Below are positions 8,829 through 24,457 of a stretch of 64,000 bases of DNA, one piece after another. Under the pieces are notes generated by a model, which did not search any database, had not been told where the DNA came from, and saw only the letters and a program-made list of their open reading frames with translations. The translations under genes were made by a program, and so were the position numbers. Positions within the stretch are counted from its first letter, which is position 1. Every line of letters begins with the position of its first letter. Origin of the DNA: Flavobacteriales bacterium (GTDB lineage: Bacteria > Bacteroidota > Bacteroidia > Flavobacteriales_D > Sanyastnellaceae); assembly GCA_027491075.1 (NCBI GenBank), contig JAIXWX010000008.1, positions 124,001-188,000 of the forward strand. The letters run 5' to 3'.

Positions 8829-11522
8829 TTATTTTCTAATCATAAGTTTCTTGCTCACAACGTTGTTATCAGTAACGAGTGAAACATTATACATTCCCTC
8901 AGCAAGCGGATTCAAATCCAATCTGTAGTTATTGAACCCTGGCTGAACATTGCGAATGTTATCGGTCATCACCAACTTACCGTTAATATCATAAACATTA
9001 ACAACAACCGAAGGGGCCTGCTTTACAGAGAACTCTAGTTGTGCAAAATCTCCGGCTGGGTTTGGATACATTACGAAAGAATTTTCCGAAGCATTGGCTT
9101 CATCAACTCCAACAGTACCTTGTACTTGGAAGTTGTCAATGTACAAGTTATTGGTGTATTCGCTTGTTTTGAATACAAACTTGAACATTACATTTTCTTC
9201 GTAAAGTGTATTGGGTAATGAGTAAGTCTCAGTTTTCCATTCGTCTACTGAAGCGGGAACGAAATAGTCAGTCACGTTTCCAGCAGATACCAAATTAATT
9301 CCAGCAATAGTACCGCGAAGCTGCCATGTTTGACCACAATTTCTACTTGAATATACTTCAAGGTTGTCAGTCATATCTGCCAAGTTCACCGCCTGCGTTG
9401 CAAAAGCATATCTGAAGCTGAAAGTAGCTCCAGTACCAGTATACATGCTTAAGTCCACACCGGGCATGATAAGCTCATCAATGTCATTTGCACCTTCATC
9501 AATGATAGATTCATCCACGTCATAGGCATTAATAAAAACACAACCTAGGTCATTGTAACCAGTAGTATTGCTCCATTGGAAGCGAGAAGTATTGTCGTCA
9601 AGATTTCTTACGGTGAATTTCTCATTGAATAACTGCTCGTCGCTAAAATTCTCGGTCAAAACACCTCCGAGATATCCAGGGTCACCATTTACATAAATGG
9701 CCTGTTCAGTGGTAGTTGTTTGGCCAAATTCGTTGGTCGCAGTGTAGGTGATACTCTTCCATCCTGGGGTAGAGAAGGTTACATCTGGGAATTGGCTGGT
9801 AGAAGTGCCGCCTTCCCATGACCATAGGTGAGAAGTAGCAGTACCGTTGTGATTATTAGGGATAAGCGTAACTGATTCCCCAACACATGTTACAACTCTT
9901 TCTGGGTAGAAGTCTGCTTGAGGGGCACAACCTGCAACGTCATTATTGAGAAGACCAGTGAAGATCAAGTTTTGCTCAGACCATAAATTATTTCTGCCTG
10001 CAAGTGCAAGATCAAGAGCAATTCTCATGCGCTCAGCTTGACCAATAGTGAACATATTAGAGCAATATGAATACTCCATGTAGTTCTGGATGTTCTCAAT
10101 AGCTCCAAATGTTCCAAGCACTTGTACATTGTCTACTTCGAAAGTACCGTCTGTGTCTTCTGCTTCCCATGCATAGATACGGATAGTGATGGTCGAATTG
10201 TGCTCGTTCACATAATTCGGACCGGTGAATGAAGCACGGCAACCAATGAGATCGGTTGCAGTAGATATGTCATTTACAAATGTCCAAACGTCCGAACCTT
10301 CCAAAGCAAGTTCAGCATTTACAGGCTGGATGGTGGCAGTGGTGTTAGAAGAGAAACCATTTGCACTGGTACGAATGGCGAATTTACGTGGACCAGACTC
10401 ACTTCTTTTCACGTTAAATGCCAAACCAGTGATGGTCATAGACTGACGAAGAGCAGAAGTCACTTGGAACTCATAGTATTTTTCTGTATTTATCATACCA
10501 GATGTTGTCCAGTTTGAAAAAGCAAATTTTCCATCGACAAGAGAGTTTTCGGAAAGACCCACTGCTTTAGCTGGTCCAAATACAATTGTATTGTCATCAA
10601 TTTCATTTAGTACGGTTGGGTCTTGCGAACCTGTATTCGTGGTTACCGCAGTAAAGTCGAAGCGAGCAGAATTCGGAATGGGCTGGCTATCGCAATCGTG
10701 CTCATTGGCGAATAAAGAAAAGCAATTGTCGTGACCTGCTGTAACGGGAGTGTCTTCTACACCGTCGTCGTCGCAGTTGAGAGTAGGATCGTTATTGTCT
10801 CCCCAAGTGTGCTGAAGGTTGATCCAGTGTCCTACCTCGTGAGTAAGTGCTCTTGATAGACCTGGGCTAGAAGTACCAATACTACCGATGTAGTTGTGAC
10901 GGATGATGATACCATCGCGAAGTGCAACTAGTCCATTTGGAACACCTGAAGGATAATATGCGTATCCTGCTACTCCGCCTTCCATGTCACCCACTACCCA
11001 TACATTGAGGTATCGGTCACGTGGCCAAGCATTGAGTTTACTTCCGTCGTCACCAACATAGGTTTCAATCGAAGCGATACGGTCTATACCATTGGTACAG
11101 TTTCCTTCGAAGTCTTTTTGAGCAAGACGGAATTCAATGCGCGAATCAGCCACCAAAGGCTTCCACATATCCAAAACATTGTCCGTGTCACCGTTCAGTT
11201 TTCTGAAGTCATCATTAAGGATGCGCATCTGATCGAAAATCTGCTCATCAGAAATGTTTTCAATACCATAATTATGTATGATATGGAAGACTACAGGAAT
11301 GGTGATAATTGGATCATCTGAAAGATCTCGTCCTTCCGCTCTTCTAGCGGCGATGATTTCTTTGATTTGACGATCATAGTCGGCAGCACGCTGTCTGAAT
11401 TCGGGATCAGCTTGCTCCAATTGTTTGTGCATATGATCTGCTCCACAGCGATGTACAGGCTGTTGAGCGTTTACCATAGTTGAGAGTGCAACCGCAGCGA
11501 GAAAAGTAAAGATTTTTTTCAT
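8829..11522 (-). CDS. Secreted M43 (cytophagalysin-type) zinc metalloprotease with T9SS signal
   Basis: ATG 11522 gives MKKIFTFLAAVALSTMVNAQ, a signal peptide; a GTG 6 bases upstream is in frame but unlikely. The metzincin motif HEVGHWINLQHTWG stands near residue 226, with N-L-x-H typical of the pappalysin/M43 family; the two sites CDDDGVEDTP and NYMEYSYCSNMFTIGQAERM complete the family pattern. Next come a PKD-like domain (about 560-640, LWSWEGG...ITYTATNEFG), a carbohydrate-binding/MAM-like domain with YIDNFQVQG, and a C-terminal type A T9SS sorting domain (FVMYPNPAGDFAQLEF ... GMYNVSLVTDNN ... KKLMIRK). It should be exported through type IX secretion and attached to the surface or released, degrading external protein. 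A TATATTTG box lies upstream. Confidence 0.93.
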   Translation of the reverse strand: MKKIFTFLAAVALSTMVNAQQPVHRCGADHMHKQLEQADPEFRQRAADYDRQIKEIIAARRAEGRDLSDDPIITIPVVFHIIHNYGIENISDEQIFDQMRILNDDFRKLNGDTDNVLDMWKPLVADSRIEFRLAQKDFEGNCTNGIDRIASIETYVGDDGSKLNAWPRDRYLNVWVVGDMEGGVAGYAYYPSGVPNGLVALRDGIIIRHNYIGSIGTSSPGLSRALTHEVGHWINLQHTWGDNNDPTLNCDDDGVEDTPVTAGHDNCFSLFANEHDCDSQPIPNSARFDFTAVTTNTGSQDPTVLNEIDDNTIVFGPAKAVGLSENSLVDGKFAFSNWTTSGMINTEKYYEFQVTSALRQSMTITGLAFNVKRSESGPRKFAIRTSANGFSSNTTATIQPVNAELALEGSDVWTFVNDISTATDLIGCRASFTGPNYVNEHNSTITIRIYAWEAEDTDGTFEVDNVQVLGTFGAIENIQNYMEYSYCSNMFTIGQAERMRIALDLALAGRNNLWSEQNLIFTGLLNNDVAGCAPQADFYPERVVTCVGESVTLIPNNHNGTATSHLWSWEGGTSTSQFPDVTFSTPGWKSITYTATNEFGQTTTTEQAIYVNGDPGYLGGVLTENFSDEQLFNEKFTVRNLDDNTSRFQWSNTTGYNDLGCVFINAYDVDESIIDEGANDIDELIMPGVDLSMYTGTGATFSFRYAFATQAVNLADMTDNLEVYSSRNCGQTWQLRGTIAGINLVSAGNVTDYFVPASVDEWKTETYSLPNTLYEENVMFKFVFKTSEYTNNLYIDNFQVQGTVGVDEANASENSFVMYPNPAGDFAQLEFSVKQAPSVVVNVYDINGKLVMTDNIRNVQPGFNNYRLDLNPLAEGMYNVSLVTDNNVVSKKLMIRK

Positions 11523-11551
11523 AATCACAGGCTATGCAATTTTTAGGAGTT

Positions 11552-11559
11552 CAAATATA
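11552..11559 (-). promoter_or_regulatory. -7 promoter box of the M43 protease gene
   Basis: Read on the minus strand the box is TATATTTG, an exact TAnnTTTG match, 29 bases before the ATG at 11522. Confidence 0.5.
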
Positions 11560-11746
11560 GACAAATCAATGCTCAACTGCATAATTTAAACAGTAAGCTT
11601 AAGAAGATTGAAACAATAGAATATCAAATTATTAATTCGCGCAAAAATCTGAGTAACAGATATTTAAAGCAAGTGACGAGCTTAAATATTGCTCGTAGAA
11701 TGGAAATATTTCACAAAGTTTCAGGAATAGATATGGAAAAAAACCA

Positions 11747-12511
11747 TCAGATCACGAATTCGCGATCTTTTGCGTCCAGCACTTTGGTTTTTTTCTTGAG
11801 GGTTCTCAGTACAAGAAACATGACGAATGATGCTGCTAAACCCACCTGCCAAAAGGGGTGAATCGCTTCTTTCCAATTAATAAAACCAATATGGAATAGA
11901 TTCTTCATGAGGTCGATCAAGGCAAAAGAAAGAAAAATGGCGAAGAATCCATTGTATTCACGCTTGAGCACATTTCGCATACTAAAATGCCAACCAGCAG
12001 ATTGCCAGTTAGATAAAGAAGGCCAAAATGCAGGTGTTTTCTCTGCCCAGTTTAAATAAATCTGCCCAAATTTTTTTCTTAGGAAAAATTCCTCGGCAAA
12101 CATTATCCGCTCGTAGTAAATCCAGAATAGAAAGCAGCAAAGAATAGAGAACCACCAGTTTCCAACGTAGATAATAATTCCCAACCACATGAAGAAGTTG
12201 CCCAAATACAAAGGATGGCGCACGGTAGAGTAAATGCCTTTTGTGTTCAAGGTTTCAGCTACTTGGCCTTCTTTGGTATTTCTTCCACTGGTGCCCTTGG
12301 GCGTGTATCCGATGGTGATTCCTCGAATGATTTGACCTAATAAAGAGATGCCTAGACAGGCGACCGCCCATTGCAAGTCGAATAACTCCATGTGCTCATC
12401 TAATTCTAAAAAGATGACCAACGTTGCCATTACATATAAGGTAAGGGGAAGATAACTTCTCCAGCGGAATAACCAGTTTCCTGATTTGTCTAACTCTTCA
12501 ATGAGTGCCAT
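11747..12511 (-). CDS. Isoprenylcysteine carboxyl methyltransferase (ICMT/PEMT)-like membrane protein
   Basis: The 254-residue protein has about six hydrophobic segments. The family signature is GIYSTVRHPLYLGNFFMWLG (about residues 91-110), followed by a E-x-F-x-R-x-x-FG-x-x-Y-x-x-W block (EEFFLRKKFGQIYLNWAEKT) and a P-A-F-W-P motif. These form the SAM and substrate sites of ICMT-fold integral methyltransferases. Bacterial members methylate lipids, small molecules or unknown substrates; no substrate is indicated here. It has its own -7 box (TAGATTTG at 12543-12550) although it lies downstream of folE and the SDR gene on the same strand. Start ATG 12511. Confidence 0.8.
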   Translation of the reverse strand: MALIEELDKSGNWLFRWRSYLPLTLYVMATLVIFLELDEHMELFDLQWAVACLGISLLGQIIRGITIGYTPKGTSGRNTKEGQVAETLNTKGIYSTVRHPLYLGNFFMWLGIIIYVGNWWFSILCCFLFWIYYERIMFAEEFFLRKKFGQIYLNWAEKTPAFWPSLSNWQSAGWHFSMRNVLKREYNGFFAIFLSFALIDLMKNLFHIGFINWKEAIHPFWQVGLAASFVMFLVLRTLKKKTKVLDAKDREFVI

Positions 12512-14070: not shown

Positions 14071-15531
14071 ATGCGGATTAAAATTTTTCAATTAAAAACG
14101 GTCATCACTTTTGTCTTCATTCTTTCCTGTGTTATAGTGAATGCACAGCGCAACCGCCCGCGTTGCAATATTGAAGGGGCAGTAATGATGTACTCCCAAT
14201 ATGATACCGTTGTGCCAGATGAAACCTACAAAACCAGATCTTCCAGATATCTTTATGTAAAAGCCCCCGGTCATGTTCCGAAGTTTGAAATAATGGATGG
14301 GGAGTATTCCAATATATTAATGGAAGATATTACCATCAAACTAAATGAAGCGCCGAAACGGGTGGATAATTTAAACTTAGCGGTTTCTCAAGTTCGCATC
14401 GATATTGGTGATGGTGCAATGCTCTTGCGGTCCTTTAAAAAGTTAGGCGATATGCGTTCGAAGAAGGTGGATAAGTCTGATTACACTTCAGTAGAGCCAC
14501 TCACCGTAGAGTCGGCGTCTAACCTAGAGTCTGGCTTGTATAGCTTTCTCTTAGAACAGCAGTACATCGATTCAGTAATTCCCTTCTTCTACGATCGAAG
14601 CAATATGCTTGATTTGACCGTAGAAATTTCAAAGGCCAAAATTCACAGCCTTGTTACAGGTTTGTACTTTTCGCTTTCCTTGGAAGGTGTTTTTAAAGTC
14701 ACTGATTACTCCGGTAAGGAAATATTTACGCAGGCATTTAATAAAGAAGGAGAAATTCTGCCGGTTCGTTTCTATTTACAAAATAGTTATTACCTAAGCT
14801 CGTACGAGGTGTCGAATGGCAGCAAAGGTGCATTTCTGTGGAATCACACTCTAGAGCGAGCTTTTCTCGATATGTATTCAAGTAGTGAATTCTTGTCGTT
14901 TATTGAGAATAGAAAGAATGCTTTTCAAGAGAAAGATCGCCTTCCAATAGTTCGTGTAAGTAAGCCATTAAAGTCTGCTACAAATGCCTCTGATGCTTTG
15001 AAATCGATAGTCACCGTAGAAGGAGAAAAGGGACATGGAAGCGGATGTGTTATCAGTGATGATGGTTATATAGTAACTAACTATCACGTACTTGGAGGAA
15101 ATCCAGATAGCTTGCATGTAGTTAGTCACGATGGAAAAAAGTTTAAAGTGAAGGTAGAGCGTGTTGATGAAATTTTTGATTTGGCACTTTTAAAAATAGA
15201 AGAAACAAGTTCCTTAAAAGGAGTTTCACTAACAGAGTCACCTTCTCCGAAATTGGGTGATTTCGCATATGTGATCGGTACTCCAGCCGATACATTCTTG
15301 GGCCAAACGGTCACTCGAGGAATTTTTAGTGCAATCCGTGATGTGGACGGAAAGAGAATATATCAAACAGATGCAGTAGTCAATCCAGGCAATAGCGGCG
15401 GTGGTTTGTTCAATGCAAACTTTAACTTGGTGGGAATTGTCGCTTCTAAAGGAATTGGAAATGTGGTAGAAGGCCTAGGTTTTGCTATTCCAACAAACTA
15501 TGTGTTTCAAAGACTAAGAATTACATATTAA
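14071..15531 (+). CDS. Exported trypsin-like (S1C, HtrA-fold) protease, first of three paralogues
   Basis: The 486-residue protein has a signal peptide (about 1-26, ending VIVNAQ). An N-terminal region contains a conserved module at about 150-275 (LYSFLLEQQYIDSVIPFF ... DYSGKEIF) that recurs in the next two genes. The C-terminal trypsin-like domain (about 305-486) begins GHGSGCVISDDGYIVTNYHV and has an intact triad: H339, D370 in FDLALLKIE and S442 in NPGNSGGG. There is no PDZ domain. It is probably a periplasmic protease. The next gene starts 2 bases after its stop, so the three paralogues form an operon. A weak box (TAATTTCG) lies about 20 bases before the ATG. Substrate and regulation are unknown. 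Confidence 0.85.
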   Translation: MRIKIFQLKTVITFVFILSCVIVNAQRNRPRCNIEGAVMMYSQYDTVVPDETYKTRSSRYLYVKAPGHVPKFEIMDGEYSNILMEDITIKLNEAPKRVDNLNLAVSQVRIDIGDGAMLLRSFKKLGDMRSKKVDKSDYTSVEPLTVESASNLESGLYSFLLEQQYIDSVIPFFYDRSNMLDLTVEISKAKIHSLVTGLYFSLSLEGVFKVTDYSGKEIFTQAFNKEGEILPVRFYLQNSYYLSSYEVSNGSKGAFLWNHTLERAFLDMYSSSEFLSFIENRKNAFQEKDRLPIVRVSKPLKSATNASDALKSIVTVEGEKGHGSGCVISDDGYIVTNYHVLGGNPDSLHVVSHDGKKFKVKVERVDEIFDLALLKIEETSSLKGVSLTESPSPKLGDFAYVIGTPADTFLGQTVTRGIFSAIRDVDGKRIYQTDAVVNPGNSGGGLFNANFNLVGIVASKGIGNVVEGLGFAIPTNYVFQRLRITY

Positions 15532-15533
15532 GC

Positions 15534-17087
15534 ATGAAAACTATTTCAATTATATCAAAATTATTTCTCGTTGTTTTGGTCTTCTCTCTTTCGAGTTGCT
15601 CGATCTTTTTTCAGCAAATGAATATCACTGCTAAATGCAAAGATGAGAAAGCTGGAGTTGCAGTAAATGGCATATACACTGACGATGAGGGAAAGATTAA
15701 AATTCTTCGACGTTCACCACTTGCTATTACGGCGTATCGTTATGGTCATCGTTCGAGTAGTACGTATTACGCTCCGAAAAAATTCAACTTTGGAGTTCCA
15801 CTTACTGCCGCTACTACAATTGGTTTCGGAGCAGCGTTGGGTGATGCATCATCGATGATTGCCGCAGCGGGAATATTTACCACATTGGACTTGGCAATGG
15901 GTATAAAACGCCAAGCAAGAAAATTTGAAATCCCGGCTCCGGTGAAGTTACCTGAAAATACGGATAAGTATTTTGCAGTCTACGCTAGCGACAAATTGCG
16001 TAACGTCAAGCCGAGCAAAATGTTTTTTTCTACGGTTCCAAAGAAAAAATTCATCTCGAAGTTTGACGATAACAGAAGTAAATATATCTCAGGAGAGGGT
16101 GAGAGTTCTGATGAATGGAACTTGGAAGAATGGTTTGATACGAAGTTGGAAGTGATGGGGTATCAAGAAGATCGTCCTTATGTGCTACCGCCTTATGAGA
16201 AAACGCTTCAAATAAATCTAAAGGTGGATGAAGTAGTAAATGTAAATAATGCGAGAGGCCACATTTTCTCTGAACTGGATATGACCTTCATTGCAGAAGA
16301 TTTCTTCGGTAATGAGCTGTTGACCTATAAGAAGAAAGTACGTTCTCAAGTGTTTATGAGTTCATATTATGGGCTGGATTACGATGAGAGTATTTTTGAT
16401 GCTATCCTAGCAGGTCTGATGGAGTTTGTCTCGTCATCGGAGTTTGCCTCATTAAAGCAAAGTGTATTGGCTCGATATGAAATAGCACACAAAGATGATA
16501 GTGAGGTTGTTTTGGCGAATGATAAAAATGCTAAGCGAAATGCGGTGAATGCTGCCGATGCTCAAGTAACCATTAAAAGAGATGGATATCACGGCAGTGG
16601 GTGTGTCATTTCAAGCGACGGTTATATTCTAACCAGTGGACGTGTTGTAAAAAGAGAGGAAAGTAATTCGGTTATCTTTAGTAATGGAAAAACGAAGAAA
16701 GCGGATATCATCAAGATCAACCCGCTGCTCAATATTGCTTTATTGAAAGTAGATACCGTGGGTGTGGGCTACTTGCCTATCGCTAAGAATAGAAGTTACA
16801 AAGTAGGTGATGATGTTATTGCTTACGGTACACCCGTTGATGAAGCATTGTCGCAAACAAGGACTAAAGGAATTGTTAGTGCTGAAAGAAGAGAGAATGG
16901 AGTAAATTTTATTCAGAGTGATGTCAAGATCAGTCAGGGTGGAAACGGAAGTCCTATTATCAATACAAATGGAGATCTAATAGGTGTAGTGAATGACAAA
17001 TACCTCGCTGGCGGTTTGAACGGACTCACGTTTGCCGTTAGCAGCGAAGACATCGTGAGATTGCTAAATCTTAAATTTAAAGACTAA
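15534..17087 (+). CDS. Lipoprotein pseudoprotease: trypsin-like domain with all three catalytic residues replaced
   Basis: The 517-residue protein has a lipoprotein signal (LFLVVLVFSLSSC, lipid Cys 22). Residues about 37-75 look like a small PEGA-type beta domain (GVAVNGIYTDDEGKIKI), followed by a Gly/Ala-rich hydrophobic stretch (88-125). The module shared with its neighbours lies at about 197-310, and a trypsin-like domain at about 340-517 keeps the fold signatures GYHGSGCVISSDGYILT and GDLIGVV. At the triad positions it has R370 for His, N400 for Asp and N471 for Ser, so it should be catalytically dead. It sits between two paralogues with intact triads, 2 and 6 bases away. A regulatory, anchoring or substrate-holding role is inferred. 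Confidence 0.83.
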   Translation: MKTISIISKLFLVVLVFSLSSCSIFFQQMNITAKCKDEKAGVAVNGIYTDDEGKIKILRRSPLAITAYRYGHRSSSTYYAPKKFNFGVPLTAATTIGFGAALGDASSMIAAAGIFTTLDLAMGIKRQARKFEIPAPVKLPENTDKYFAVYASDKLRNVKPSKMFFSTVPKKKFISKFDDNRSKYISGEGESSDEWNLEEWFDTKLEVMGYQEDRPYVLPPYEKTLQINLKVDEVVNVNNARGHIFSELDMTFIAEDFFGNELLTYKKKVRSQVFMSSYYGLDYDESIFDAILAGLMEFVSSSEFASLKQSVLARYEIAHKDDSEVVLANDKNAKRNAVNAADAQVTIKRDGYHGSGCVISSDGYILTSGRVVKREESNSVIFSNGKTKKADIIKINPLLNIALLKVDTVGVGYLPIAKNRSYKVGDDVIAYGTPVDEALSQTRTKGIVSAERRENGVNFIQSDVKISQGGNGSPIINTNGDLIGVVNDKYLAGGLNGLTFAVSSEDIVRLLNLKFKD

Positions 17088-17093
17088 AGACAC

Positions 17094-18380
17094 ATGAAAG
17101 TTTCATTATATCCCAGTGTTTTTTGTATGGTGTGTTTCATTCTTGTTACGCACTCCATTGGATACGCTCAGAATGCTCCTGAGAAAAGAAAGAACAACGA
17201 AAAGTATGTGACCGCTGATGCGATCTTCTTTAACCTGCACGAAGGAGATATCACTGAAACGTACTACAAATCGGAGACTTTGCGTAAAAAAGATCGTTCC
17301 TCAAAGTCTACCAAAAACGACGAAGATATCATTCAACAAAGCGATGGCATTGCTTCTTATTTGCAAGAGTTGCTTTTTGAATTGGAGTATATCGATACTA
17401 CGGGTCGTTTTTTTCCTGATTATAAAAATTCTCTTCATTTGACAATGGCTGTTGAAGAGCTGCACTTCAGGCACATCAAGCCTTCTCGCAAGAGTCCTAT
17501 TTTAAGAACATATGTAGAGATGGTGGCCGATTTTAGCTTGAATTCGTACTATGGGAAAGAACTTTATAAGAATCAACTTGCGAAAGAAGTAGTCATAGAA
17601 ACGAACAAGGAGACCACGTGGCGAGATCAAATGCGGTCTTTGATCAAGGAACTTCTTTACGAGTTTATGCTAGATAATAATGTTCAATCAAGAACAGAAT
17701 CTTCAGAATACTTTGATAAGGAGAGCGGTCAAGACAATACTGTTATCAGATTGAGTACTTCAAACACCAAAGGACAAATGCAGGAGTGGAGGGAAGCAGT
17801 AGTCACAGTGCTCACTAAGGATGGACACGGCAGTGGATGCGTTATTTCCCAAGATGGATATATGGTGACCAACTACCACGTGGTGCAGCAAGAACCTACA
17901 GTGCGAGTGAAGCTTCACGATGGTCGCGTGTTTGATGGAACCGTTTTACGCAAAGCGCCAGAAAGTGATTTGGCATTGATTAAGTTGGAGGCAAAAGGAC
18001 TTTCTTTTGTGACTCCGGGTATTACCAAGAGTGAATTAGGTCTTGAAGTATACACCATCGGTACGCCTGGAGATACCCTGTTGACACAAACCGTGAGCAA
18101 GGGAATTATCAGCAGTAGAAGATCCTTAGATGATTCGGAATATCTGCAGACGGATGCTTTGATCAATCCTGGAAATAGCGGTGGAGCCTTACTCAGTACC
18201 AACGGAGATTTGGTTGGAGTAGTTAGCGCCAAGTACCATGGTTATGGCATTGAAGGCATAGGATTCGCCGTTCCTTCAGAGAAAATCACAGAGTATTTGA
18301 ATGTAGTTTTCGAGAAGCCTGCTCCATTGACACCTCCTCCGAGTAAAGCCGATCCTAAGCCAAAGAAAAAAGGGAAATAA
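17094..18380 (+). CDS. Exported trypsin-like (S1C, HtrA-fold) protease, third of three paralogues
   Basis: The 428-residue protein has a signal peptide ending GYAQ near residue 26. The shared module lies at about 85-195 (IASYLQELLFELEYIDTT ... SYYGKELY), and the trypsin-like domain at about 230-405 has an intact triad: H262 in TNYHVV, D292 in SDLALIKLE and S362 in NPGNSGGA. The C-terminal 25 residues are a Pro/Lys-rich tail (PLTPPPSKADPKPKKKGK). There is no PDZ domain. It is the closest sequence match to the first gene of the trio in its protease half. Ordinary bacterial HtrA proteins have one or two PDZ domains for regulation; here the N-terminal module may take that place, which is inference. 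Confidence 0.85.
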   Translation: MKVSLYPSVFCMVCFILVTHSIGYAQNAPEKRKNNEKYVTADAIFFNLHEGDITETYYKSETLRKKDRSSKSTKNDEDIIQQSDGIASYLQELLFELEYIDTTGRFFPDYKNSLHLTMAVEELHFRHIKPSRKSPILRTYVEMVADFSLNSYYGKELYKNQLAKEVVIETNKETTWRDQMRSLIKELLYEFMLDNNVQSRTESSEYFDKESGQDNTVIRLSTSNTKGQMQEWREAVVTVLTKDGHGSGCVISQDGYMVTNYHVVQQEPTVRVKLHDGRVFDGTVLRKAPESDLALIKLEAKGLSFVTPGITKSELGLEVYTIGTPGDTLLTQTVSKGIISSRRSLDDSEYLQTDALINPGNSGGALLSTNGDLVGVVSAKYHGYGIEGIGFAVPSEKITEYLNVVFEKPAPLTPPPSKADPKPKKKGK

Positions 18381-20744: not shown

Positions 20745-20996
20745 GGATTTATCTAAGGGACCTATTCGGCATTTTTACATTGGTAAACTAGTTACCTATC
20801 ATGAGGATTAGGGACTCATTTTGAGTGCCATTGGTTTTTATCTTTAAAACTGAGGGGATTCTAATACACAGGATGCATCGTTATTCTAAAATTTATCAGT
20901 TTAGAAAGAGGATAGATTTCGATTCAAAAACTCTGTTCAAAAATGTTCTTACATCGGTTTAAATTAATTGGGCACTTGTATTGTTTAGCCTGCTTT
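20745..20996. other. AT-rich non-coding stretch at the left edge of the restriction-modification locus
   Basis: No open frame, RNA gene or strong hairpin was found. The composition shifts from the host-like hemF gene to a more AT-rich sequence, which marks the probable left boundary of the acquired segment. No direct repeat shared with the right side (24458-24545) was seen. Confidence 0.4.
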
Positions 20997-21032
20997 TGTC
21001 CGTAGATTTGTCCGTGTCCGTAAAAATGTCCG
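20997..21032 (+). repeat. Four phased TGTCCG repeats just before the methyltransferase start
   Basis: TGTCCG occurs at 20997, 21009, 21015 and 21027, that is with spacings of 12, 6 and 12 bases, giving the layout site-6-site-site-6-site. The last copy ends 4 bases before the ATG at 21037. The arrangement looks like an operator or a set of arm-type recombinase sites, not like chance. Confidence 0.7.
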
Positions 21033-21036
21033 CAAA

Positions 21037-23262
21037 ATGATAAATGTAAAATTTTACCTTGATAAGGCAGATAAAAGCAAAAGATACCCAATACACTTGG
21101 TTATTAGGCAGAGAGAAGTGCAGGTCAAGGTTGCAACAGGTGAGAAAATACTTAAAAAAGACTGGGATAGTAAACTTCAAATAGTCAAGGATTCTGATGG
21201 TAACTATAAGTCAATAAATAAGTTTTTATCTTTTTTGAGACAAGAAGTTGAGAAGTACTTTAATGCAGTGCCACACGCCAATTTTACAGATAAAAAGGTT
21301 AAAGAAAAGATTTTGTCTTTAGTAAATGGTAGAAAGCTAAATACAGAATTAAAAATCCTTTGTGAAGAGGCTGCAGAATACGAAGGAAAGATCAGAACAA
21401 CATTTGTTGATTTATTCGCTGGCGCAGGTGGCTTCAGTGAAGGATTTTTACAAGCTGAATATGGTAATAGGTATTATGATTTTCTGTTAGGAAGTGATAT
21501 TAATGAGAATTGTGAATTAACCCATTTAGCTCGATATAACTTTCAACTAGGTTTGGAAGCGGACTTTTTACGTCAAGACATAACGGAAATTGATTTTTTA
21601 GATAACCTGTTAGAACGACTTAAAGGTCAGCAAGTAGACGTTGTTTGTGGAGGTCCACCTTGTCAAAGTTTCAGCTTGGCAGGTCGCCGAAAAAAGTTTG
21701 ATAAAAAGGATGACTTGTTTTCTCATTACTTGAACGTAATTCGGGTCCTCAGACCGAAGTATTTTGTTATGGAGAATGTGAAAGGGATCCTAACGAAGGA
21801 AGGGGGGAAAATCAAAGAAATGATTTTGCAAGAGATTAGGTCTATAATAGATCTAAAAGAGTTTCATAAGATCGTTTATTTTTTATCTAACCTACGTAAA
21901 GTTGAGAAGATAAAGACATTTATGCTTGATTGCTATATTCAGAGAATGCAGTTTGAATCAGCTAATGAGAAAGAATTAGAGAAATTTCGCGAAACATATA
22001 TTCAGATGATCGAGAATAGGTTTCGTTTACTAACTCCAAAAATTGTTGATTATAAAACAAGCAAAACCAATATAAGTATAAGCACAATTCGTCATGGTTT
22101 TAATTTGTTAAAACGAAGTAAGGAGTTGTCTTATATCCGGAAAAAAGTCATTCAAGAAAAAGCCCATAGCGATCTAGATAATGATTTTTTTGCAGAAAAA
22201 TTTGATTCGTTTTTATCTACAATTGAATCTGACTCAATTCTCGATCAGATTCGAGTTGCTTTTGAAAATTTGAAACCGTCAGAGGAATATCAAACCGAGA
22301 TTAATGAAATTATTCAAGCACTAGAAATATATAACTTTTCATTTGACGAATGCATAGAAGGTCTTAGACCTTTTGTTAGAAATTTGAGTGTAGAAGCGGA
22401 GTTTGAGGATATTCTATCTCATATAAGACTTTATAGAATTGATCAACCTTTTGTTGCGCTAGCATCAGACTATGGAGTTCCGCAAAATCGAGAAAGAGTT
22501 TTATTTATTGGATGTCGGAAGGATCAGAAGTTAGTCAAGACAGTCCCTGCTACCGTTAGTGAAAAGGAAAAGGTTACAGTTTTTGAAGCCTTGTATGATT
22601 TAGATTTTATTGGAAATGATGAGGAAAAGTACAGTTATGAATTAGTAGACTCAAAATTAAGATATAATGGCACCACAGATAAAATGAAGTCACTAATTAG
22701 AAAGAGGAATGTTGATGGAAAACCTGATGAGAAAAAGGGATTGACTTATGCTGAGTGGTCTAAAAAAGGACGGTTGAATGGAAGATTTTCGAATGCTAAA
22801 AATCCATTTTATGTGCGCTCGTTTGATGAACTTGAGAATAGCTTAGCGCATGTAGTTGCGCCTTTGCACAATCATAAAACAAGCAAGCAAAGTGAGGACG
22901 TTATAAGAAGATTGGACATTATTCGTAGCGCAGGTAATTATGATTTAGCAAAGAAAGAATTGAAAAAAAATGGCCTTGACTCAGAGAAACGGAATTATAA
23001 TGTCTTGAGACCAGATTCACAAAGTCCTACGGTAATGACAATACCTGATGACTATATACATTTTTCAAGTCCCAGAGCTTTGACTGTTCGTGAAATGGCA
23101 CGTTTGCAGTCTTTTGATGATTCATTTGTTTTCCAAGGAAAGCGCTCAACAGGAGGCAGCAAACGTAAATTCGAAGTCCCGCAATTTACTTTAGTGGGTA
23201 ATGCCGTACCTCCTTTAATGGCTCGTGCTGTGGCGTTGGAAATATTAAGGAGTATTAAGTAA
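21037..23262 (+). CDS. Cytosine-C5 DNA methyltransferase fused to an N-terminal integrase-type arm DNA-binding domain
   Basis: The 741-residue protein starts with about 95 residues (INVKFYLDKADKSKRYPIHL ... VATGEKILKKDWD ... NKFLSFLRQEVEKYF) that match the arm DNA-binding domain found at the start of Bacteroidota tyrosine recombinases. From residue 121 it is a C5-methyltransferase: motif I DLFAGAGG (125-132), motif IV PPCQ with catalytic C209, motif VI ENV (246-248), motif VIII QNRERV (483-488) and motif X GNAVPP (721-726), with the target-recognition region at about 510-670. Between motifs VI and VIII lies a mainly helical insertion of roughly 180 residues. No recombinase catalytic domain is present. 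It should methylate the sites cut by the next gene. Codon use is AT-rich, suggesting transfer. Confidence 0.9.
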   Translation: MINVKFYLDKADKSKRYPIHLVIRQREVQVKVATGEKILKKDWDSKLQIVKDSDGNYKSINKFLSFLRQEVEKYFNAVPHANFTDKKVKEKILSLVNGRKLNTELKILCEEAAEYEGKIRTTFVDLFAGAGGFSEGFLQAEYGNRYYDFLLGSDINENCELTHLARYNFQLGLEADFLRQDITEIDFLDNLLERLKGQQVDVVCGGPPCQSFSLAGRRKKFDKKDDLFSHYLNVIRVLRPKYFVMENVKGILTKEGGKIKEMILQEIRSIIDLKEFHKIVYFLSNLRKVEKIKTFMLDCYIQRMQFESANEKELEKFRETYIQMIENRFRLLTPKIVDYKTSKTNISISTIRHGFNLLKRSKELSYIRKKVIQEKAHSDLDNDFFAEKFDSFLSTIESDSILDQIRVAFENLKPSEEYQTEINEIIQALEIYNFSFDECIEGLRPFVRNLSVEAEFEDILSHIRLYRIDQPFVALASDYGVPQNRERVLFIGCRKDQKLVKTVPATVSEKEKVTVFEALYDLDFIGNDEEKYSYELVDSKLRYNGTTDKMKSLIRKRNVDGKPDEKKGLTYAEWSKKGRLNGRFSNAKNPFYVRSFDELENSLAHVVAPLHNHKTSKQSEDVIRRLDIIRSAGNYDLAKKELKKNGLDSEKRNYNVLRPDSQSPTVMTIPDDYIHFSSPRALTVREMARLQSFDDSFVFQGKRSTGGSKRKFEVPQFTLVGNAVPPLMARAVALEILRSIK

Positions 23263-23278: not shown

Positions 23279-24457
23279 ATGAGGCAGTTATTCACTTTTG
23301 AAATCGAAAGAATAAAACTTCTGACAGAGAATTCCGTTGAAATTTGTTTCATTGAACCAACAGAAACGGGACTGGGTAAGTCAATTATGGATGCCACTGG
23401 GTCAGTAAGAACGTACTTAAAGTCGCATGGAATTCATGACTATGAGCTGCAAAAGCAAGGACCTGAAAGTAAAGTTCAACTAGACGCTTGTTTCATCGAT
23501 TCAAATAGGTTTATTGACTCTACTGTTTCTTTATATCGACCCAATACAAAAAAAGGTGATCCACGAATTTGGTTCAAAGGTTTAGGAGGTTATTCTCGAG
23601 CAAACGATATACTTGGAATAATAACTTTCGAAAGAAAACTCTATGTTTTGAATATTACTCAACTTGATATAAAGAAGCTAATTGAAAGTGAGTTATTTAA
23701 TCCATTAAGAGAGATTGTAAATGCAATAAATGTATCTTCTAATGAAGTTGCTGATGAGTTGTTGATTTTACTAAAAAGAATAACCGCTAATGGACCTATT
23801 CCAGCAATACTGGATGCAGATACAGCGATCGGAAGGACTCTTGAAACCCTTTTAGGGATAGAAATCAATTCATCTAAAAAGCCAGATTACAAAGGGATAG
23901 AATTGAAGTCATTTCGTGATAATCGCGGAAATCGTAAGAATCTATTTGCACAGGTCCCCGATTGGAATTTAAGCAAATTCAAGAGCTCTTCAGAGATATT
24001 AAATGCATTTGGATATAGTCGCGGGGATGATTTTAAATTGTATTGCACTGTTTCCTCTCTTGTTAGAAATTCGCAAGGATTGAAATTGAAAGTGGATTCA
24101 GAGATAGGTCAATTAATAGAAAATTCAGATAAATCGGATGTAGGAGATTTTATTGTTTGGGGATTAGAAACACTGCATAAGCGACTACTCGAAAAGCACA
24201 ATGAAACGTTTTGGATTGCTGCTGACTCCATTAATATTGACGGAAAAGAACATTTTCTGTACAAGAGAGTTGATCATACTAAGAAACCAATTGTTTCTCA
24301 GTTCGATGTATTAATAGAGCAAGGTATAATAACACTGGATCATTTGATTAAAAGAAAGCCAACGGGCAGTGTGGTTGAAAAAGGCCCGATCTTCAAAATA
24401 AAACCGAATTCTTTAGATCTTTTATTTCCCCCAACTCGAGAGTATTCTTTGTTATAA
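23279..24457 (+). CDS. Type II restriction endonuclease, MvaI/BcnI family
   Basis: The 392-residue protein has an N-terminal region of about 170 residues without a recognised motif and a nuclease domain beginning ADTAIGRTLETLLGIEINSS and KKPDYKGIELKSFR. The expected metal-site residues E189, D203, E208 and K210 are all present as an E...PD-x4-E-x-K pattern typical of MvaI/BcnI-type enzymes. Known relatives cut CCNGG-like sites (MvaI CCWGG, BcnI CCSGG) and act as monomers; the site here cannot be deduced. It follows the C5-methyltransferase with 16 bases between, forming a type II restriction-modification operon. An ATG at 23274 in another frame stops after two codons, so ATG 23279 is used. 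AT-rich like its partner. Confidence 0.85.
   Translation: MRQLFTFEIERIKLLTENSVEICFIEPTETGLGKSIMDATGSVRTYLKSHGIHDYELQKQGPESKVQLDACFIDSNRFIDSTVSLYRPNTKKGDPRIWFKGLGGYSRANDILGIITFERKLYVLNITQLDIKKLIESELFNPLREIVNAINVSSNEVADELLILLKRITANGPIPAILDADTAIGRTLETLLGIEINSSKKPDYKGIELKSFRDNRGNRKNLFAQVPDWNLSKFKSSSEILNAFGYSRGDDFKLYCTVSSLVRNSQGLKLKVDSEIGQLIENSDKSDVGDFIVWGLETLHKRLLEKHNETFWIAADSINIDGKEHFLYKRVDHTKKPIVSQFDVLIEQGIITLDHLIKRKPTGSVVEKGPIFKIKPNSLDLLFPPTREYSLL

Follow-up and report, generated by a model that had tools for sequence, protein, structure and literature searches.

What does a DNA-binding arm domain of the kind that heads Bacteroidota integrases do at the front of a cytosine methyltransferase? 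This question was raised by a gene at positions 21037–23262 (+) in a stretch of 64,000 nucleotides (nt) from Flavobacteriales bacterium (contig JAIXWX010000008.1, positions 124,001 to 188,000), hereafter called the window. The open reading frame (ORF), its Pfam matches and its conservation identified the product as an arm-fused C5 cytosine methyltransferase of 741 amino acids (aa). GTCCG direct repeats were found directly before its start codon, lying over a predicted promoter. Sequence comparison and analogy with known systems suggest that the methyltransferase very probably represses its own promoter through the arm domain.

An integrase-type arm domain precedes a C5 methyltransferase

The preliminary description of the window, made from the DNA letters, had taken the N-terminus for an integrase-type arm domain and the remainder for a complete C5 methyltransferase without a recombinase core. 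Both assignments were borne out, the first by Pfam, by profile–profile comparison and by the predicted secondary structure, the comparison with solved structures being less clear. In the search with the whole protein, residues 9–77 matched Arm-DNA-bind_5 (PF17293) with E = 8.9e-5 and 23.4 bits, and residues 1–118 alone gave E = 1.3e-6 and 29.2 bits, the gathering score being 22.6. The arm domain was placed at residues 1–105 (21037–21351, +). Among the other N-terminal fragments scanned first, those of loci L003, L005 and L006 also passed the gathering score (27.9, 35.9 and 34.6 bits), and 76 of 77 aligned arms matched PF17293 at E ≤ 0.01, a limit looser than that score. No noteworthy arm match came from NCBIfam, PHROGs or a PDB sequence search.

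The AlphaFold2 model of residues 1–118, built on 77 sequences, had a mean predicted local distance difference test score (pLDDT) of 85.3. It showed strands at residues 4–8, 17–25 and 28–38 and helices at 57–77 and 85–104, and the succession of three strands plus helix that had been named beforehand was thus obtained. For the profile–profile comparison, 26 of 30 integrase loci (L109–L138) were extracted, without L123, L132, L135 and L138, and 21 were aligned; L109 was dropped for lack of a start codon, L126 and L137 as fragments, and L134 and L136 for a weak or atypical arm. By hhalign, the methyltransferase arms matched these 21 Bacteroidota integrase arms with a probability of 99.0 and E = 6.8e-18 over 94 columns. 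All nine of the aligned integrases that were scanned with Pfam contained an arm, a SAM-like and a catalytic domain, with the arm match ending at residues 81–96. The methyltransferase therefore takes the place of what follows the arm in integrases.

The remainder of the protein matched DNA_methylase (PF00145) with E = 4e-53, the match being split into two stretches. The first half of the methyltransferase comprises residues 120–268 (21394–21840, +) with the PPCQ and ENV motifs, and the second half residues 471–741 (22447–23259, +) with the QNRERV motif, the target recognition region and the last motifs. PPCQ, ENV and QxRxR were invariant in 77 sequences. The predicted fold of the methyltransferase domain resembled DNMT1 (Z = 21.9) and M.HaeIII (Z = 19.6), although the model had low confidence over much of residues 665–722. 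As judged from the model and the split PF00145 match, the two conserved halves are separated by about 200 residues that are nearly all helical (21844–22446, +), and the model had helices throughout residues 250–463. This insert varies as fast as the arm. Neither Phage_integrase (PF00589) nor SAM-like (PF13102) was present among the Pfam matches listed up to E = 10. Without these domains after the arm, the protein does not have the make-up of a tyrosine recombinase of the CTnDOT group.

GTCCG direct repeats upstream of the gene

Relatives were collected by a scan of one genome per species, in which 232 were found at tblastn E ≤ 1e-3, and the locus counts refer to the best 80 of these. For the upstream regions L062, L083 and L106 were left out, giving 78 loci with the window included; L051 was also left out of alignments A3 and A4. 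The 78 upstream regions had little similarity except for GTCCG repeats directly before the start codon. In the window, the candidate operator at 20997–21032 (+) consists of four GTCCG half-sites in direct repeat with a spacing of 12-6-12 (starts at 20998, 21010, 21016 and 21028). The pair GTCCG-N7-GTCCG was found within 100 nt upstream of the start in 76 of the 78 loci; four copies at 12-6-12 were present in 46, and the 12-spaced pair alone in 14. The pair was absent from 15600 shuffled upstream regions (0/15600) and from all 16 loci, comprising 15 genes, in which a C5 relative matched only in the catalytic part, and it occurred at no further place in 937,424 bases of arm-methyltransferase loci. 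A four-codon mini-ORF was noticed by eye at 21026–21040; its ATG overlaps half-site 4 and it ends on the start codon of the methyltransferase (ATGA). Loci in which half-site 4 has the sequence CGTCCG do not have this mini-ORF.

It was asked of the alignment whether shared ancestry alone could account for the repeats. In 75 aligned loci, the eight core operator positions not fixed by the search were 89% identical on average, and the 26 unfixed positions of the full 36-nt operator 73%, compared with 38% in the 39 nt that precede the operator and 43% at third codon positions in the arm. Shared ancestry alone would therefore be insufficient to explain the conservation of the repeats.

In the host genome (3.02 Mb), the pair pattern with up to two mismatches was found twice, both times in the promoter of the arm-methyltransferase gene. 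Among 395 genomes of the phylum, the exact pattern occurred in four, all of them among the five carriers of the arm-methyltransferase, and each time immediately upstream of the gene; in the fifth carrier (G045), the spacer differs by one base. A backwards control pattern was found in 5 of the 395 genomes, so that chance matches would be expected at about the observed rate, yet none of the four real matches lay elsewhere. In IMG/VR, 18 contigs fitted the operator pattern, each with two TCCG in the 40 nt counted and with no ORF of more than 172 aa starting within 120 nt; several of them share one sequence, and they were rejected as chance matches.

The preliminary description had offered two uses for such an arm, namely binding to short repeats to control the operon, or the targeting of methylation. 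The first of these is supported by the position of the repeats, which bracket the predicted −7 box and accompany the gene in 76 of 78 loci without another place in the host or in the sample of 395 genomes. The second fared less well. An arm that directs methylation to arm-type sites in the genome or promotes it there, or that tethers the enzyme to DNA, would accord with the invariant catalytic motifs and with the DNA binding of arm domains described in PMC8138268, but with a single place for the repeats in the 3.02 Mb genome, even when two mismatches were allowed, this explanation is quite improbable.

The repeats could instead be the operator of a host-encoded regulator, the arm serving otherwise, for example by adding DNA affinity. 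Two loci, L031 and L061, which keep the arm without intact repeats, would fit such an arrangement. However, a regulator of the host should act at further sites, whereas the repeats were found solely at this promoter in the host, and in their exact form solely in arm-methyltransferase genomes among the 395. Nor is there an upstream gene common to the loci: no ORF of at least 45 aa within 1.5 kb upstream was common to more than 2 of 67 loci. We therefore regard a host-encoded regulator as unlikely, if less so than the targeting of methylation.

The repeats lie over a predicted promoter

In 68 of the 76 loci aligned, the spacer of the first GTCCG pair, extended by the following G, has the sequence TAnnTTTG. 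TAnnTTTG is the −7 consensus of flavobacterial sigma-A, located at −12 to −5, according to PMC9723704. In the window this box (TAGATTTG, 21003–21010, +), assigned by its match to the consensus, is bracketed by half-sites 1 and 2, and a candidate −33 element, TTG, lies 19 nt ahead of it in the sequence (20981–20983, +). A TTG 17–23 nt before the TA of the −7 box was observed in 55 of 76 aligned loci, compared with a share of 0.177 in shuffles. With transcription starting near 21015, as this predicted promoter would imply, the first two half-sites would extend from about −17 to −1, and the other two would fall in the first bases of the leader.

Since the repeats overlie the predicted −7 box and start, a protein bound to them should keep RNA polymerase out. 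We thus propose that in this type II restriction-modification unit the C5 methyltransferase controls the expression of its own gene. The arm, which is related to the arms of CTnDOT-type Bacteroidota integrases, would bind the GTCCG repeats over the −7 box and the transcription start, and methyltransferase that has accumulated would occupy the repeats and exclude RNA polymerase. The outcome would be a limited amount of methyltransferase, and probably of the products of the whole operon where the endonuclease gene is co-oriented directly behind, as it is here.

The location of half-sites 3 and 4 downstream of the deduced start also fits an action of the repeats on translation or folding of the leader RNA instead of on transcription. 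The most conserved pair, however, consists of sites 1 and 2, which bracket the −7 box upstream of that start, and 14 of 78 loci have solely these two sites. An effect confined to the leader RNA is accordingly given very little credence.

Several observations weigh against repression through the arm. One of the five arms scanned first, that of L004 (genome G296), reached 19.7 bits and remained under the PF17293 cut-off. The integrases used for comparison had themselves been retrieved with PF17293, so the profile match cannot count as evidence separate from Pfam. Foldseek retrieved nothing from the PDB for the arm model at E ≤ 0.001. The domains 3rmp and 3jtz, which are of the arm type, scored weakly (Z = 3.0 and 2.9; root-mean-square deviation 2.8–2.9, 54–55 residues), level with PX domains, which are unrelated, and lower than an AP2 domain (4.2); such values are too low to identify a fold by themselves. 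The repeats are absent from L031, where the start codon is 130 nt from the contig end, and L061 carries a mutated copy. Of 76 loci, 21 have no candidate −33 element, and in 8 the −7 box deviates from TAnnTTTG. Half-sites 3 and 4, being in the leader, could also act there, and a tiny regulator may be present among the small downstream ORFs. Finally, autoregulation would leave the delay of the endonuclease in operon-type loci unexplained.

Distribution and conservation of the arm-methyltransferase

Among the 395 genomes, full-length relatives were found in the host genome and four others, with 56–81% identity. The locus set and the genome set overlap, L033 and L060 being the same places as in G016 and G296. 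When the arm of the family was used as query against the 395 genomes, 35 matches were obtained, namely the five methyltransferases and 30 in frames of 230–475 aa. Among PF17293 matches in 118 genomes, open frames of more than 700 aa belonged solely to the arm-methyltransferase (737, 744, 754 and 757 aa), the next longest having 547 aa. The fusion of arm and methyltransferase is specific to this family within the genomes sampled.

A search for the same architecture elsewhere had been proposed at the outset, together with the possibility of an assembly error. Arm and methyltransferase were encoded in a complete single ORF in 76 of the 80 kept loci, with identity down to 57%. As for the other four, L051 has the arm and runs off the contig end, L062 and L083 are cut at the contig start, and L106 is broken. 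An assembly error or chimera that joined two genes was thus excluded, because 76 of 80 loci encode the whole protein. The carriers include Flavobacterium, Pedobacter, Mucilaginibacter, Sphingobacterium, Flectobacillus, Arcicella, Chitinophaga, Tenacibaculum and Roseivirga; the family is sparse (5 of 395 genomes) yet spread widely in the phylum, from Flavobacterium to Chitinophaga, and it is accompanied by several endonuclease partners. Carriage on plasmids or phages was considered and rejected: the three records in PLSDB and the one in INPHARED each matched 36–40% of the query only, and of 46 stretches in IMG/VR that fitted the peptide pattern, none was confirmed. No full-length relative was thus found in these plasmid, phage and viral collections.

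The distances between arms follow those between the rest of the proteins, with r of 0.89–0.92 for three regions and 0.40 for the last, as expected of an old fusion that has been passed on in one piece. Mean pairwise identity was 0.574 in the arm and 0.839 and 0.878 in two conserved catalytic stretches. This faster divergence of the arm would be compatible with a functionless relic of a fusion with an integrase gene. Against this stand the unbroken frame of the arm in 77 of 80 loci, the eleven positions invariant in 77 sequences (start Met included) and the polar residues whose conservation is specific to the family, so a relic hardly comes into consideration. The polar residues are D9 (77/77), H20 (76/77), Q29 (70/77), K31 (77/77), E36 (72/77) and K37 (77/77). 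The 21 integrase arms mostly differ at these positions, K37 being K in 2 of 21, and P18 and N61 are common to both groups. In the model, H20, Q29, K31, E36 and K37 are situated on strands 2 and 3 of the arm.

Comparison with known systems

PMC3874152 describes two routes by which methyltransferases control themselves: some repress their own promoter by means of an N-terminal helix-turn-helix on an operator, and others methylate a promoter site. The M.SsoII/M.Ecl18kI-type enzymes are close in design (PMC3978073, PMC3874152). They are likewise C5 methyltransferases that carry an additional DNA-binding domain at the N-terminus and have an operator over their own promoter, although for the present family the overlap concerns a predicted promoter, with its −7 box in 68 of 76 aligned loci. 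Where those enzymes have a helix-turn-helix, as had been pointed out for this locus, PF17293 and the model place an arm domain; the repeats are direct here, in contrast to the inverted-repeat operator there, and the catalytic domain is interrupted by about 200 mostly helical residues.

The CTnDOT-type tyrosine recombinases share the N-terminal Arm-DNA-bind_5 domain, with similar length and boundary. Integrase arm domains recognise accessory DNA sites (PMC8138268). In the present family, the methyltransferase stands in place of the core-binding and catalytic domains, and the repeats lie on a promoter. Negative autoregulation occurs in integrase genes such as that of KplE1 IntS, in which the integrase lowers its own expression and att overlaps the promoter (PMC2951348); there a recombinase acts on an att site, whereas the protein described here contains no recombinase. 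Direct repeats in a restriction-modification promoter are also reported for RptR of type I restriction-modification islands (PMC12255303). RptR is a small protein in its own right and recognises a TAGCTA palindrome, whereas the candidate regulator in this family is part of the methyltransferase.

Among the matches listed in searches of the open-access literature, no report of a fusion of arm domain and methyltransferase was found, most subscription papers being outside the search. An autoregulating methyltransferase is of a known kind; the arm domain and the build of the operator are new as far as these searches reach. It seems reasonably likely that an integrase arm was captured, cut at the domain boundary, and became a dedicated repressor domain reading up to four GTCCG repeats (two 12-base-pair (bp) pairs, 18 bp apart) on the −7 box, and that endonucleases of several families have since joined the self-regulated module.

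If autoregulation through the arm is correct, an arm domain would be at work outside recombination, and the self-control of a methyltransferase would rely on a domain that integrases also possess and on direct repeats placed over a Bacteroidota promoter. The conserved D9, H20, Q29, K31, E36 and K37 together with the conserved operator would then expose the recognition code of CTnDOT-type arms, and the family would offer a simple system for learning how Bacteroidota integrase arms choose their repeats. A sharp prediction follows, namely that the arm binds the 36-bp DNA already identified.

Partner genes

Sixteen bases past the stop of the methyltransferase gene begins a gene for a MvaI/BcnI-family restriction endonuclease of 392 aa (23279–24457, +), whose family domain (PF15515, E = 5.3e-73) covers residues 165–383. 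It also matched REase_II (PDLC03584) and R.MvaI (2oa9, E = 0.0011). As the C5 methyltransferase gene directly precedes this endonuclease gene, the two form a type II restriction-modification pair.

Over 81 loci (window included), a full-length endonuclease of the MvaI/BcnI type was the downstream partner in 52 (50 co-oriented and 2 opposite), and a partial one in 1. The other partners were a convergent protein of about 314 aa (15 loci), an EcoRII-C type endonuclease (2), a GmrSD fusion alone (3) and Mrr (1); one locus had DzbA and DzbB alone and another a glycosylase-like gene alone, and in 5 loci no recognised partner or a contig end followed. The family names of the partners were tested on one or a few members each, and that of the glycosylase was given by eye. 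Besides the catalytic domain, the DNA-binding module that the loci have in common is the arm. The repeat pair accompanied the convergent 314-aa partner in 14 of 14 loci and the EcoRII-C partner in 2 of 2.

The convergent protein (about 309–328 aa; L032, 8223–9164, −), relatives of which lie beside 15 of the 81 loci, had no Pfam, NCBIfam, PADLOC or convincing PDB match in L032; by its position, it is perhaps an undescribed restriction endonuclease family. The defence genes DzbA and DzbB, which PADLOC named in L026, stand between methyltransferase and endonuclease in that locus (9685–11893) and also in L028, L036, L070, L087 and L096, and in L054 and L082 they are behind the methyltransferase without a co-oriented endonuclease. 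The N-terminal 164 residues of the window's endonuclease (23279–23770) gave no strong Pfam match. A related stretch was found behind a GmrSD_N domain in other loci (for example L074, 8852–10378), and from these sequences it looks like a mobile domain.

Methylation target

The MvaI/BcnI and EcoRII-C families cut CCWGG, CCSGG or CCNGG, and these partners suggest a target of the CC-N-GG kind. Among 32 patterns, CCWGG showed the strongest avoidance in the host, with an observed/expected ratio of 0.73; the ratio was 0.62, 0.77 and 0.86 in other carriers, and two non-carriers were also low (0.67 and 0.87). None of the 78 loci had CCNGG within 70 nt upstream of the gene, and three had it within 150 nt. 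If CCNGG is the target, control through its methylation near the start is therefore unlikely.

A convergent gene of about 220 aa lies beside 10 of the 81 loci (for example L081 and L056) and by eye resembles a HhH-GPD glycosylase; it is possible that it is a repair partner for deaminated 5-methylcytosine. Elsewhere in the window, at 14071–18380, three tandem genes were noticed whose C-terminal halves, as judged by eye, resemble trypsin-type serine proteases.

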